DNA of 40,122 bases, from assembly GCA_022763285.1 (NCBI GenBank), contig JALEHB010000017.1:1-40122 (forward strand), read 5' to 3'. Positions 8,697 through 26,430 of this stretch are shown in pieces; the first letter of the stretch is position 1; every line of letters starts with the position of its first letter. Source of the stretch: Pseudomonadales bacterium. Lineage in GTDB: Bacteria > Pseudomonadota > Gammaproteobacteria > Pseudomonadales > Pseudohongiellaceae. The notes beneath the pieces are model-generated. The model had not been told where the DNA came from and ran no database searches. It was given only the letters and a program-made list of their open reading frames with translations. The translations under genes and the position numbers were made by a program.

Positions 8697-11171
8697 CTAG
8701 AAGTCATAACTGACCCGGACACCCATGGTCAGGGGTCGGGCGTAAGTGACCCGCTCGCGGTCGAACACGAAGGAGCGGGCAATCTCGGCGCGCTCATCAG
8801 TCAGGTTCTCGGCGAACAGCTCGGCCGACCACATGTCGGAACTGACTCCGGCGGTAAGCCCCCACATCGTCCAGCTGTCAATCAGGTCGCGATTGATGCT
8901 GATGATATCGCTCCAGGACTCATCGGAGTAAGTCACATGGGGCATGACATGGGCAGTCAAACCGGAATCAATGGTCCATTCGTATCGTGCCCGCAGATTG
9001 AATTGTACTTCCGGCGCAAAGGCCAGGGAGTCGCCCACCTGCACATCATTGGTTGGCGTGATAACCCGGGTGATTTCAGTATCCAGGAAGGAGAATGCAC
9101 CTACCACATTGAGTCCGGGCATGGACGGCGGCGCCCAGATGAAATCACCTTCCACACCGGTAACCTCGGCATCGGCCGCGTTATCCGAGAAGAACAGGTT
9201 GGTAATGCTCGGGTCGAAGATGGTGGTCTGCATCTGTTCAATCTCGGATGCGAAGATGGCACCGTTGAAGCGCAGGGTGTAGTCCAGCAGATCTACTTTC
9301 CAACCCAGTTCGATATTGGTCATGTCATCGGTATCGATGGCATAGGGAACGGTGAAGCTGCCATCAGGACTGACCGAGCCGCCCGGGCGATTGAGAATTC
9401 CCGGCCGGAAACCTTCGGAGTAAGTCGCATAAACCAGCTGATCCGGCGTGGGTGACCAGTTGACACCAAACTTGGTGATCACACCGTCGGTCTGGGCAGA
9501 CGCGGGATTCGGCGCGCTGAACAACTGGTCCAGATTGTTACCGGCATTATTGTCTTCGCTGGCACCAAAGTTACCAAAGGAGCCTGCTGCACTACCCTTC
9601 AGATCAACCTCGATATCGTACCAGCGTGCACCCAACAGAATGGAGAACTGGTCGCTGACATCGAAGGTTGCCTCGCCAAAGATACCCAATTGCTCATCGG
9701 GTCGATAGACATCGTTACGGAAGATGACACCTTCCGGCCACACCGCAGTGTCAGCCGCGGAAGAGCCCTGGGCCGAGTAGTTCGGGCCATAACCCACATT
9801 GCCATTAAAGGCGATTGCCTGCTCTGAACCAGGATAGGTGAAACTGTTCAGCTCGCGCAGATCCAGCTTGCTGTAGAAACCTCCAAAGGTTGCATGAATC
9901 GGACGGTCAGGATTAGTGGCAAAGCGCAGCTCATGGGATTGCACGTCAACACCGGTGGTACTGCTGACAAACAATTCAGGTGACTGACAGGTGCCGCTGG
10001 GATCACCGGAAGGATAGGTCACTGAACCATCACAAATGTAATAAGGCAGATACTGGCCTACAAACAGGTAATCGCTGTAGTCAACGATTTGCTCGGCATC
10101 ACGTTCGGTAAAGGCACCGGCGTAGACGGCTTCCAGTTCACCGATACGACCAGTCAGGGTCCAGTTGGTATTGTTGAAACCGTCTTCGAGGCGGTCATCG
10201 GAATAGCGCTGAATTTCCAGATCGCCAAGGTCAGGATCGGCAAAGAACACGCCATCGCTGTCCAATTGCTGGCTGGTATGGGAAACCAGTAACGACCAGT
10301 CAACATTGAACTCATACAGACCGGATACACGGATACCGGCATAGGTCAGGTCATTGAAGTTATCTTCAACACGATTGCCATTGTCGGCCTCAATAAAAGT
10401 GACATCGCTCAGGTCGGCCGTTGACTGGAATCCGGCTCGCCCTGCACTCACTGGCAGACCATTGGCGCGCACCGTACCTTCAGGCCGGAAACGCGCTGAC
10501 TCACGCGCAGTGCGGCTACCCTGGACATTGTCGATATAACCACCCTGGTTATCGACATAGGCCACTGCCCGCAGCGTAAACTGGTCGCTTACCGGAAAAT
10601 TGACCACTGCCTCGACGTTATTGCTCATCTCACCATCGGGGGTGAAGGAGGTGCCAAATTTCAGGCCTGCAGAATTGGCATTGGGATCCGGCTTGTTGGT
10701 AATCAGCCTGACGGTACCGGACTGGGAACTGGCGCCAAACAGGGTTCCCTGTGGGCCCGCCAGAACTTCGACCCGCTCCAGGTCGGCGGCATAGACATCC
10801 AGGTTACGACCAGGCTGGGCCAGGGGCTGCTCATCGAGATAGAAGGCCACGTTGGGAGACAGACCTGCTACACCGGCAACGGTGAGATTGGGAGTGGTTG
10901 AGGCTACACCACGAATATAGATGGTGTTTTGGCCAGGGCCACTGCCGCCAGCGGTCACGCCGGGCAGTTGCAACATATAATCTTCAAAATTGGTGACACC
11001 GGTTTGCTCCAGTGTTTCGGCGGTCAGTGCCGAGACGGCCACGGGAACATCCTGCAAGGATTCCGGTCGTTTGGTGGCGGTGACGACAACCTCTTCAATC
11101 TGGGCATGGGCGGTAAGGGAACTGGTGGATGCCAGGGCAATGGCAAGACAGAGTTGTTTTTTGCGAAACAT
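8697..11171 (-). CDS. TonB-dependent receptor (824 aa)
   Basis: Signal peptide, IEEVVVTATKRPESLQDVPVAVSALTAETL plug, C-terminal beta-strand ending in F. Confidence 0.95.
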   Translation of the reverse strand: MFRKKQLCLAIALASTSSLTAHAQIEEVVVTATKRPESLQDVPVAVSALTAETLEQTGVTNFEDYMLQLPGVTAGGSGPGQNTIYIRGVASTTPNLTVAGVAGLSPNVAFYLDEQPLAQPGRNLDVYAADLERVEVLAGPQGTLFGASSQSGTVRLITNKPDPNANSAGLKFGTSFTPDGEMSNNVEAVVNFPVSDQFTLRAVAYVDNQGGYIDNVQGSRTARESARFRPEGTVRANGLPVSAGRAGFQSTADLSDVTFIEADNGNRVEDNFNDLTYAGIRVSGLYEFNVDWSLLVSHTSQQLDSDGVFFADPDLGDLEIQRYSDDRLEDGFNNTNWTLTGRIGELEAVYAGAFTERDAEQIVDYSDYLFVGQYLPYYICDGSVTYPSGDPSGTCQSPELFVSSTTGVDVQSHELRFATNPDRPIHATFGGFYSKLDLRELNSFTYPGSEQAIAFNGNVGYGPNYSAQGSSAADTAVWPEGVIFRNDVYRPDEQLGIFGEATFDVSDQFSILLGARWYDIEVDLKGSAAGSFGNFGASEDNNAGNNLDQLFSAPNPASAQTDGVITKFGVNWSPTPDQLVYATYSEGFRPGILNRPGGSVSPDGSFTVPYAIDTDDMTNIELGWKVDLLDYTLRFNGAIFASEIEQMQTTIFDPSITNLFFSDNAADAEVTGVEGDFIWAPPSMPGLNVVGAFSFLDTEITRVITPTNDVQVGDSLAFAPEVQFNLRARYEWTIDSGLTAHVMPHVTYSDESWSDIISINRDLIDSWTMWGLTAGVSSDMWSAELFAENLTDERAEIARSFVFDRERVTYARPLTMGVRVSYDF

Positions 11172-12054: not shown

Positions 12055-12320
12055 GGCCCGCCTGCGGCGGGCTGCACCCGGCACGATTGATTCGGGGCAC
12101 CGCTTCGCGCTGCCTTAGAACAGAGCTCCTGGGATCGGCCGGGGGAGCCATTTAGATTGAACCCGCTTTGAACGGCGGTGCATCCGGGTAGATCGCTCGG
12201 CACGATTGATTCGGAATTGAGCTAAGCTCAATTCCTCACCCCTTCGGGGCCGCGCTTTGCGCGGTCTGCGCCGCTGCGCGGCTTTCGAACGTGGCACGTG
12301 GAATCGGCCGGGGGAGCCAT
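12055..12320 (-). repeat. Two tandem tRNA-Arg-derived repeat units downstream of tRNA-Arg
   Basis: Two copies of ATGGCTCCCCCGGCCGAT (12130-12150, 12299-12320 as reverse complement), each followed by a T-loop-like TTC(G/T)AA...CGAATCAATCGTGCC. The distal unit ends in ATCGTGCCGGGTGC (12074-12087), identical to the tRNA-Arg 3' end, and a GCCCGCC/GGCGGGC hairpin. Confidence 0.8.
12207..12289 (-). repeat. Multi-hairpin T-loop element, tRNA-Arg locus long copy
   Basis: Reverse complement: TTCGAAAGCCGCGCAGCGGCGCAGACCGCGCAAAGCGCGGCCCCGAAGGGGTGAGGAATTGAGCTTAGCTCAATTCCGAATCA. Same architecture as the tRNA-Ser copies. Confidence 0.85.
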
Positions 12321-12321
12321 A

Positions 12322-12350
12322 AAAAAAGCCCGCCAAAGGCGGGCTTTTTG
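12322..12350. terminator. Bidirectional terminator-like hairpin downstream of tRNA-Arg
   Basis: AAAAAAGCCCGCC-AAA-GGCGGGCTTTTT. Confidence 0.8.
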
Positions 12351-12352
12351 TA

Positions 12353-12429
12353 TGGCGCACCCGGCACGATTCGAACGTGCGACCACCTGATTCGTAGTCA
12401 GGTACTCTATCCAGCTGAGCTACGGGTGC
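12353..12429 (-). tRNA. tRNA-Arg(ACG)
   Basis: GCACCCGTAGCTCAGCTGGATAGAGTACCTGACTACGAATCAGGTGGTCGCACGTTCGAATCGTGCCGGGTGCGCCA folds as a cloverleaf; anticodon loop CTACGAA; encoded CCA. Confidence 0.97.
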
Positions 12430-13372: not shown

Positions 13373-14152
13373 ATGGCGGCTGTAGGTACCCTGCTCAGTG
13401 AATTCCGCAAGCGCAAGCGCTTGTCGCAACTGGATCTGTCCCTGATGGCGGATGTGTCCTGCCGACATATCAGCTTTATTGAAACCGGGCGCAGCCAACC
13501 CAGTCGCGGCATGTTGCTGCGCCTGGCGGAAGTGCTCAATTTGCCCCACAAGGACAGCAATCTGTTATTGCATTGCGCCGGTTTCGCCGCCGCCTACAGC
13601 GATCTGGACCTGGAGTCTGAAGAACTGGCTAACATCCGCGCCGCTCTGCAGATGATGCTCGAAAACCACGAGCCCTACCCGGCCCTGGTCATGGATGGCA
13701 ATTACAATTTGCTGATGGCCAATGGCAGCCAGCAGAGGCTGTTGGCGATGATTGCCAGCCCGCCTGTGCAGCAACCACTGAATATGCTCGAAGCAGCCTT
13801 TCGTGATGACCTGTTCAAGCCCCTCATCGCCAACTGGGATGAAGTCGCCAGCCATTTGCTGCGCCGCCTGCGCAGACAACTACTGGCCTATGATACCGAG
13901 GCCCACAAACAGCTTTTTGATCATCTGCTTGAACTCGGCGCGCCCGAAGACTGGCAAACACCCACAGACAACAGCAATGACGGCCCGGTGCTCACTATTG
14001 ATATCAAGCTGGGGGGTCTGCAACTGAGCCTGTTCACCACCGTCAGCCAGTTCGGCACGGCGCTGGACATCGGCATGGAAGAAATCCTGATCGAAAGCTA
14101 CTTCCCTGCCAATGATCAGACCCGGGATTTTTTCCACAGTGCTCTGAATTGA
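13373..14152 (+). CDS. XRE-family transcriptional regulator with MmyB-like ligand-binding domain
   Basis: LLSEFRKRKRLSQLDLSLMADVSCRHISFIETGRSQPSRGMLLRLAEVLNLP HTH, followed by the EPYPALVMDGNYNLLMAN... ligand-domain pattern. Confidence 0.9.
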   Translation: MAAVGTLLSEFRKRKRLSQLDLSLMADVSCRHISFIETGRSQPSRGMLLRLAEVLNLPHKDSNLLLHCAGFAAAYSDLDLESEELANIRAALQMMLENHEPYPALVMDGNYNLLMANGSQQRLLAMIASPPVQQPLNMLEAAFRDDLFKPLIANWDEVASHLLRRLRRQLLAYDTEAHKQLFDHLLELGAPEDWQTPTDNSNDGPVLTIDIKLGGLQLSLFTTVSQFGTALDIGMEEILIESYFPANDQTRDFFHSALN

Positions 14153-14204
14153 CAGTGAACCGAATTGACAGTGAACCGAATTGATAGCGAACTGAATTGA
14201 TAGC
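14145..14204. repeat. 16-bp tandem repeat, about 3.75 copies
   Basis: (C/T)GAATTGA(C/T)AG(T/C)GAAC repeated at 14145, 14161, 14177 and 14193. Confidence 0.85.
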
Positions 14205-25396: not shown

Positions 25397-25615
25397 GGAG
25401 AGATGGCCGAGTGGCTGAAGGAGCAACCGGTGCTGGTAGTGACCGGGTTACAGACAGCGAGACCGAAGTGCTATCAGACTCCGGATCCCCTGCTAAGGGC
25501 GTATAGGTTAACACCTATCGAGGGTTCGAAAGCTGCGAAGCAACGCAGACCGCGCAAAGCGCGGCCCCGAAGGGGTGAGTAATTTGGCTCAGCCAAATTG
25601 CGAATCTATCCCTCT
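25397..25615 (+). pseudogene. Disrupted tRNA-Ser(GCT) copy: insertion before the anticodon arm and multi-hairpin element in the T-loop
   Basis: GGAGAGATGGCCGAGTGGCTGAAGG (25397-25421) and CCCCTGCTAAGGGCGTATAGGTTAACACCTATCGAGGGTTCGAA (to 25530) match the intact tRNA. They are separated by about 61-65 nt and interrupted again at the T-loop. Confidence 0.8.
25525..25606 (+). repeat. Multi-hairpin T-loop element, Ser copy 1
   Basis: TTCGAAAGCTGCGAAGCAACGCAGACCGCGCAAAGCGCGGCCCCGAAGGGGTGAGTAATTTGGCTCAGCCAAATTGCGAATC. Confidence 0.88.
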
Positions 25616-25669
25616 GGAGCGCAAAGCGCTCCTAAAAGCGGCATGCAATATGTCGAACAAAGAGTTTAC

Positions 25670-25759
25670 GGAGAGATGGCCGAGTGGCTGAAGGCGCGCC
25701 CCTGCTAAGGGCGTATAGGTTAACACCTATCGAGGGTTCGAATCCCTCTCTCTCCGCCA
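25670..25759 (+). tRNA. tRNA-Ser(GCT)
   Basis: GGAGAGATGGCCGAGTGGCTGAAGGCGCGCCCCTGCTAAGGGCGTATAGGTTAACACCTATCGAGGGTTCGAATCCCTCTCTCTCCGCCA: acceptor GGAGAGA/TCTCTCC, anticodon stem CGCCC/GGGCG with loop CTGCTAA, long variable arm, encoded CCA. Confidence 0.96.
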
Positions 25760-25814
25760 CACACAAAAGAGCCCGGCTATGCCGGGCTTTTTTGTGTGTG
25801 GCGGAGAGAGAGGG
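25744..25814 (+). terminator. Terminator extended into a long inverted repeat that includes the tRNA-Ser 3' end
   Basis: 34-nt arms (33/34 complementary) with a 3-nt TAT loop: CCCTCTCTCTCCGCCACACACAAAAGAGCCCGGC / GCCGGGCTTTTTTGTGTGTGGCGGAGAGAGAGGG. Confidence 0.9.
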
Positions 25815-25831
25815 TGAGAGCCCCCTCGCGG

Positions 25832-25919
25832 TTCGAAAGCCGCGTCAGCGGCGCAGACCGCGCGCAGTCCGCGCGGCCCCGAAGGGGTGAGTAATTTGGC
25901 TTAGCCAAATTGCGAATCA
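25832..25919 (+). repeat. Multi-hairpin T-loop element, Ser copy 2
   Basis: TTCGAAAGCCGCGTCAGCGGCGCAGACCGCGCGCAGTCCGCGCGGCCCCGAAGGGGTGAGTAATTTGGCTTAGCCAAATTGCGAATCA. Confidence 0.88.
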
Positions 25920-26035
25920 ATCCCTCTGGAGCGCGCAGCGCTCCCAAAAGCACCAACAAGATCCCAACAGAGCCCCATCTCCACTGCCGGGCTTTTTTGT
26001 GTGTGGCGGAGAGAGACGGCTGAGAAACCTCGCGG

Positions 26036-26118
26036 TTCGAAAGCTGCGAAGCAGCGCAGACCGCGCAACGCGCGGCCCCGAAGGGGTGAGTAATTTGGCT
26101 TAGCCAAATTGCGAATCA
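26036..26118 (+). repeat. Multi-hairpin T-loop element, Ser copy 3
   Basis: TTCGAAAGCTGCGAAGCAGCGCAGACCGCGCAACGCGCGGCCCCGAAGGGGTGAGTAATTTGGCTTAGCCAAATTGCGAATCA. Confidence 0.88.
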
Positions 26119-26235
26119 ATCCCTCTGGAGCGCAAAGCGCTCCCAAAAGCACCAACAAGATCCCAACAGAGCCCCATCTCCACTGCCGGGCTTTTTTGTG
26201 TGTGGCGGAGAGAGAGGGTGAGAGCCCCCTCGCGG

Positions 26236-26318
26236 TTCGAAAGCTGCGAAGCAGCGCAGACCGCGCAAAGCGCGGCCCCGAAGGGGTGAGGATTTTGGCT
26301 TAGCCAAAATGCGAATCA
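26236..26318 (+). repeat. Multi-hairpin T-loop element, Ser copy 4
   Basis: TTCGAAAGCTGCGAAGCAGCGCAGACCGCGCAAAGCGCGGCCCCGAAGGGGTGAGGATTTTGGCTTAGCCAAAATGCGAATCA. Confidence 0.88.
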
Positions 26319-26430
26319 ATCCCTCTCTCAGGAGCGCAAAGCGCTCCCAACAACATCACCAAAACCCCAACGACCCAACTCCACCACCAGTCTTTCCAAA
26401 AAACCGCACCAAAAAAAAGCACACCCCCAA

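Follow-up and report, generated by a model that had tools for sequence, protein, structure and literature searches.

A family of four-hairpin DNA elements in the T-loops of tRNA and tmRNA genes, probably related to the rtT repeats of Escherichia coli

Elements at two tRNA genes and their anatomy

The window analysed here, a stretch of 40,122 nucleotides from a Pseudomonadales bacterium of the family Pseudohongiellaceae, contains an intact tRNA-Arg(ACG) gene and, about 13 kb away, an intact tRNA-Ser(GCU) gene, both accompanied by copies of a short element made of four hairpins (Table 1). The sequence-only reading had held that an 83-nucleotide stretch at the Arg locus (reverse complement of 12207-12289) has four homologues at the Ser locus while being flanked by tRNA-Arg sequence; the homology is borne out (85-88%, E 1e-21 to 1e-24), and the Arg copy indeed lies between the two halves of the tRNA-Arg(ACG) T-arm, in the arrangement CACGTTCGA-core-ATCGTGCC. 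The proposed unit stands as an element but its boundary does not, five of its nucleotides (TTCGA) belonging to the target and leaving a core of 78 bp. Tandem units, also claimed for both loci, are present at each: the Ser array has a period of 199, and the degenerate second Arg unit ends in Arg 3'-half sequence. The tRNA-Ser pseudogene carries about 60 extra nucleotides near its anticodon arm, and at window positions 14146-14200 lies a short repeat with a period of 16 in 3.4 tandem copies.

Table 1. Features at the two tRNA loci of the window, and long variants of the element at other loci
Feature	Position	Strand	Basis
Intact tRNA-Arg(ACG)	12353..12429	-	ARAGORN; Rfam RF00005
Terminator-like stem 3' of tRNA-Arg	12321..12352	-	sequence
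tRNA-Arg 3' end (acceptor + T-arm), degenerate inverted copy, with short hp0 hairpin	12290..12320	-	sequence; general for family
Left target TTCGA = T-loop nt 54-58	12285..12289	-	sequence; flank counts across copies
Arg copy of four-hairpin core	12207..12284	-	84 bits, E 1.6e-18
tRNA-Arg 3' half, displaced, from nt 59 (ATCGTGCC..)	12194..12206	-	sequence; right-flank match
Arg unit 2, degenerate, with ..GAATCA/ATCGTGCCGGGTGC	12056..12152	-	sequence
tRNA-Ser(GCU) pseudogene, 5' part, core in T-loop	25400..25529	+	sequence
Ser core copy 1, upstream of intact tRNA	25530..25607	+	core search
Intact tRNA-Ser(GCU)	25670..25759	+	ARAGORN
Giant hairpin: tRNA-Ser 3' end, terminator, inverted tRNA 3' end	25744..25814	+	sequence
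Ser core copy 2	25837..25919	+	core search
Ser core copy 3	26041..26118	+	core search
Ser core copy 4	26241..26318	+	core search
Ser tandem array, ~199-bp units	25780..26371	+	TRF
Long variants	L022:6998-7134; L021:5541-5678; L023:5856-5997 and 9299-9441		

An alignment of 57 copies from related genomes defines the core, in the family about 75 bp long, as an ordered series of modules: hp1 (closing GC-GNA-GC), GAC, hp2, hp3 (CCC-GNA-GGG), TGAG, hp4 (GGC-TNA-GCC) and a terminal GAATCA, with compensatory double-sided changes in 17 of the 22 stem pairs. In long variants, hp3 and hp4 are separated by some 60-75 additional bases, in most cases starting with ATCGTC. Among the loci retrieved, the left flank is TTYGA/C in 110 of 172 distinct copies and the end of another core (GARTSA) in a further 35, which results in head-to-tail arrays; on the right, agreement with tRNA nt 59-70 at no fewer than 9 of 12 positions is seen in 97 of 169 copies, as against 1% of random sites. 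Together these counts place the core between nucleotides 58 and 59 of the T-loop (TTCGA-core-ATC..), and its orientation is nearly always that of the tRNA, despite the palindromic nature of TTCGAA. A few copies lie in the anticodon loop instead (locus L058), and some genomes have copies away from tRNAs (loci L037 and L053 and the L220 group). At L037:1478-1553 and L053:1450-1524, both in genome G021, related four-hairpin elements are found inside a dispersed ATTCTGCG-type repeat unconnected with tRNAs.

The arrays usually adjoin an intact tRNA. In the common form, the tRNA is followed by a terminator, an inverted copy of the tRNA 3' end, a small GAACC-NNNN-GGTTC hairpin, GA, the core and a displaced tRNA 3' half, with a median tRNA-to-core distance of 74 bp. 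The inverted copy has a median score of 12.0 for tRNAs with an element, against 6.2 for shuffled sequence, and no such copy is detectable behind element-free tRNAs (6.0 against 6.2). In an alternative form, the intact gene is preceded by a complete copy of the tRNA whose T-loop is filled, as in the window (25400-25640), in four copies in genome G025 and at tRNA-Arg(CCU) in genome G579. Elements directly behind a tmRNA gene were seen at loci L223 and L183, the former also with the inverted 3'-end anatomy.

Distribution, spread between loci and the level of selection

Two covariance models were used: R1 describes the core only and contains no tRNA sequence, while R2 includes the flanks with about 12 nt of the tRNA 3' strand and is thus biased toward tRNA contexts. 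In the source genome (3.4 Mb in 293 contigs, 91% complete), strong matches are confined to five tRNA loci, namely Arg-ACG and Ser-GCU in the window, Ser-GGA (contig C117), Ser-UGA (C164) and Arg-UCG (C126), and everything outside them is noise (E about 0.9 or worse). The idea that one family is associated with different tRNAs therefore extends to three loci beyond the original two, and the elements amount to more than a single local duplication. At genus level, R1 finds elements in 54 of 84 Pseudohongiella-like genomes; a pattern scan returned host names from Pseudohongiella and related Gammaproteobacteria. At order level, R1 matches occur in 61 of 390 genomes, and 20 loci picked by score and tandem arrangement, before any inspection for tRNAs, included 16 with a tRNA or tmRNA, the first core lying 74-95 bp behind that gene in 15 of the 16. 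At class level, the tRNA-biased R2 matched 45 of 369 genomes, with a tRNA or tmRNA gene in 25 of 29 loci. The anticipated enrichment 3' of several tRNAs is thus seen in the source genome and at order and class level. Across order and class, the neighbours of weaker relatives are tmRNA and tRNAs for Ser, Arg, Lys, Met, Ala, Val, Gln and Pro. A plasmid search gave matches confined to the tRNA-Arg part of the query. A search of the openly accessible literature, with subscription papers mostly outside its reach, returned no description of the T-loop family.

Core identity is 83.0% between copies at tRNAs for different amino acids in one genome, and 74.6% between genomes, whether the amino acid is the same or different (74.6% in each case); none of 500 label shuffles matched the within-genome excess. 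As similarity is found within genomes, and sharing the same tRNA adds none, the cores belong to genomes rather than to tRNAs, and this shows movement or conversion of the core from locus to locus; transposition as such would be a further step of interpretation. Homogenisation between loci may be caused by gene conversion between existing copies, whereas gene conversion alone cannot explain how many different tRNAs came to be colonised at one exact nucleotide. The suggestion that the element is mobile accordingly gains indirect support from the way in which unrelated tRNA loci of one genome come to share a homogenised core, and from the head-to-tail arrays.

The stems of 189 elements contain 42 G-U and 27 A-C in 3519 pairs, compared with 75 G-U and 4 A-C in 1615 pairs of tRNA stems from the same genomes (Fisher test, p=3e-7 for the G-U/A-C ratio and 4e-13 for the G-U share). 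Selection on RNA tolerates G-U but not A-C pairs; the near symmetry in the elements hence indicates DNA hairpins, or palindrome correction during replication, and points to selection or correction acting on DNA and not on RNA. These figures bear directly on whether the elements are functional regulatory RNAs like rtT, whose copies would have been duplicated along with tRNA genes for the sake of expression and tRNA-3'-end processing. Such a role would agree with the transcription of rtT in E. coli (RttR annotation), with the possible part of rtT in the stringent response that PMC2965389 credits to Bosl and Kersten, with the sRNA annotation of AaHKsRNA22 and with the retention of elements at orthologous tRNA loci in many species. 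It fits poorly with stems that avoid G-U and have A-C almost as often, unlike the tRNAs of the same genomes, with the terminator that precedes many units and with the freedom with which copy number and host tRNA vary between species. We regard it as improbable for the family at large; E. coli rtT being a known RNA product, a role as RNA may apply in some lineages. A T-loop RNA intron was also considered and rejected, because the acceptor strand that follows the core is in most cases degenerate and the stems avoid G-U pairs.

Cargo, candidate enzymes and the route of spread

At the loci inspected, the intervals between copies often contain defence and toxin-antitoxin genes. In the source genome, 3' of tRNA-Arg(UCG) (L023:4451-9209, contig C126), a CBASS system (SMODS-AGS_C cyclase, SLATT_6), a DEDDh/BRCT exonuclease and Shedu are found between or beside copies; elsewhere the cargo comprises a PifA-like KAP and a TIR protein with a tyrosine integrase (L127), SIR2-HerA (L125) and HigB toxins (L128, L232), while ordinary genes fill other intervals (L130, L131, L144). 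Some copies sit on tRNA halves displaced from the anticodon loop onwards, of the kind that islands leave. These displaced halves, which flank defence islands, and the integrase beside a unit at L127 could mean that the units are attachment sites at which tyrosine integrases delimit cassettes. However, most loci lack both cargo and integrase, the core sits in the T-loop and not in the anticodon loop, from which the displaced halves run, the number of integrases does not track that of elements (r 0.09, a statistic that ignores phylogeny), and the lone island integrase has no relative at other loci, so that tyrosine integrase was rejected as the mobilising enzyme and attachment sites appear very improbable.

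Other enzymes were sought in the same genomes. No reverse transcriptase (RVT_1) was found in the source genome, and RVT_1 is present in 9 of the 84 genus genomes; a reverse transcriptase or group II intron was rejected, the enzyme being nearly absent. The number of Y1 transposase genes tracks that of elements (partial r 0.44, p 3e-5, after correction for size and completeness, phylogeny being ignored), and a weak association appears at class level (Y1 in 35 of 45 element-bearing genomes against 198 of 324 others, p 0.03, again ignoring phylogeny), 10 of the 45 having no Y1 gene. In the source genome, at 91% completeness, no Y1 transposase was detected at E<1e-4. Y1 as a flanking partner was rejected, the surroundings of 12 Y1 loci containing no convincing core (one weak match, E 0.029). 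Of the candidates, the strongest, if a tentative one, is a Y1/HUH (RAYT-like) transposase that acts in trans; host replication and recombination alone, through template switching, ranks next.

Host processes could in principle account for the whole arrangement, if tRNA 3' ends were duplicated in tandem, replication switched template by fold-back at terminator hairpins, and gene conversion acted between loci (RecA, replication slippage), with no transposition at all. The tandem period of ~199 bp, the inverted tRNA 3' end preceding the core and the near-perfect hairpins, such as palindrome correction would produce, are what this passive amplification would leave behind; it needs no dedicated recombinase or reverse transcriptase in the source genome, and the genes beside the elements are not shared, a search for a common neighbour having yielded only conserved chromosomal ones. 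It has difficulty with a core placed at one exact nucleotide of Ser, Arg, Lys, Cys, Met, Ala, Val and Gln tRNAs and of tmRNA, whose sequences have too little in common for conversion to found a new site, and with the cores that some genomes have away from tRNAs; we consider it rather unlikely.

The reading that we favour, and hold to be probable with considerable room for doubt, is that the cores belong to an old, non-coding family of DNA hairpins with homology to rtT, whose members reside in tRNA and tmRNA T-loops between nucleotides 58 and 59 in one orientation and were spread by a single-strand DNA process. A process recognising hairpins in single-stranded DNA would spread the core, joining it 3' of TTCGA; the tRNA would survive because the insertion event itself duplicates the half that would otherwise be lost or, alternatively, because a template switch by fold-back, coupled to the event and located at the terminator hairpin, does so. 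Insertion as an event is something we infer, as no pair of empty and filled sites was observed. A bolder version, possible but doubtful, would have a class-wide family of mobile single-stranded hairpins that recognises the folded T-arm, inserts between nucleotides 58 and 59, carries or triggers the replacement of the destroyed half and seeds sites for defence cassettes, the tyrT repeats being an enteric remnant. The range of the family, its target rule and the DNA-level evidence are new; the mechanism is one that we infer. The richest genomes, at about 20-30 copies, offer a testable setting, and where defence and toxin-antitoxin islands gather at tRNA genes, the family may account for part of the repeats and scars seen there.

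Relation to known repeat families

Mini-elements derived from IS200/IS605 (PATEs) make no target duplication and are characterised by a fixed left oligonucleotide, subterminal hairpins and head-to-tail junctions. The T-loop cores share all four traits, their fixed short target being the TTCGA 3' of which they lie without duplication. The difficulty with a PATE model is that TTCGA alone is too common to explain specificity for tRNAs, and no autonomous insertion sequence with tnpA between matching ends was present among the ORFs near the elements. REP/BIME repeats with their RAYT (Y1) enzymes are similar in being short, palindromic, non-coding and homogenised in a species-specific manner, with numbers that track Y1 genes; REPs, however, are dispersed between genes, whereas the T-loop cores occupy one position, have four hairpins and gave no convincing match around Y1 genes. 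Integron attC sites are a poor match: the junctions read GAATCA followed by A/C in place of a GTTRRRY core site, and no shared integrase, as IntI would be, lies near the copies.

AaHKsRNA22 (RF02902) is a further relative of the family: its weak matches fall exactly on the window elements, and its places in genome G579 coincide with those of R2. It differs in that most of the 13 copies in one genome adjoin an uptake-like word of Pasteurellaceae (AAAGTGCGGT) and not tRNAs. At L220-L231 (genome G715), RF02902-type copies abut AAAGTGCGGT, which resembles the Pasteurellaceae DNA uptake word.

The closest comparison is with the tyrT/rtT repeats of E. coli (RttR, RF00391); PMC2965389 reports a resemblance of some enteric BIME-like repeats to the rtT transcript. 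The tyrT and window units share one order: inverted tRNA 3' end, TGAG, a GAACC..GGTTCGA hairpin, CCC-GAA-GGG hairpins, TGAG, GAATA and then the tRNA from nt 59 to CCA, with a tandem period of ~178 in tyrT and ~199 in the Ser array. As in rtT, units start with tRNA nt 59-76 and stand in tandem behind a tRNA. R2, trained without enterics, recovered all four tyrT repeats in register (in 5 kb, E 1.4e-5 for the best and 0.02-0.1 for the other three); it was needed because R1 alone gave no E. coli match at E<0.1. Conversely, many matches of the Rfam RtT model over 30 genomes coincide with R1/R2 coordinates, including the only two places in the source genome at E<=0.05 (C117:5822-5932 and C241:25999-26110). 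The copies in the window and its genome score 25-29 bits, under the Rfam gathering score of 45 bits, which 4 of the 30 related genomes reach. RtT itself is present in 4695 of 5426 E. coli genomes, at 1-14 places each; 18 RtT places in that collection are on plasmids. Judged from these sequences, the T-loop elements and the tyrT repeats most probably share common descent as distant members of one family. They differ in that the E. coli copies, examined only at tRNA-Tyr, are annotated as sRNA or cis-regulatory, whereas the family described here is found at many tRNAs and tmRNA, with near-perfect DNA hairpins, a core common to several loci, tandem arrays of solo cores and cargo between copies. 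From an isolated curiosity of E. coli, rtT would thus become part of a class-wide family with a precise rule (the T-loop between nt 58 and 59, with the tRNA preserved), for which DNA, rather than RNA, is indicated as the level of selection.
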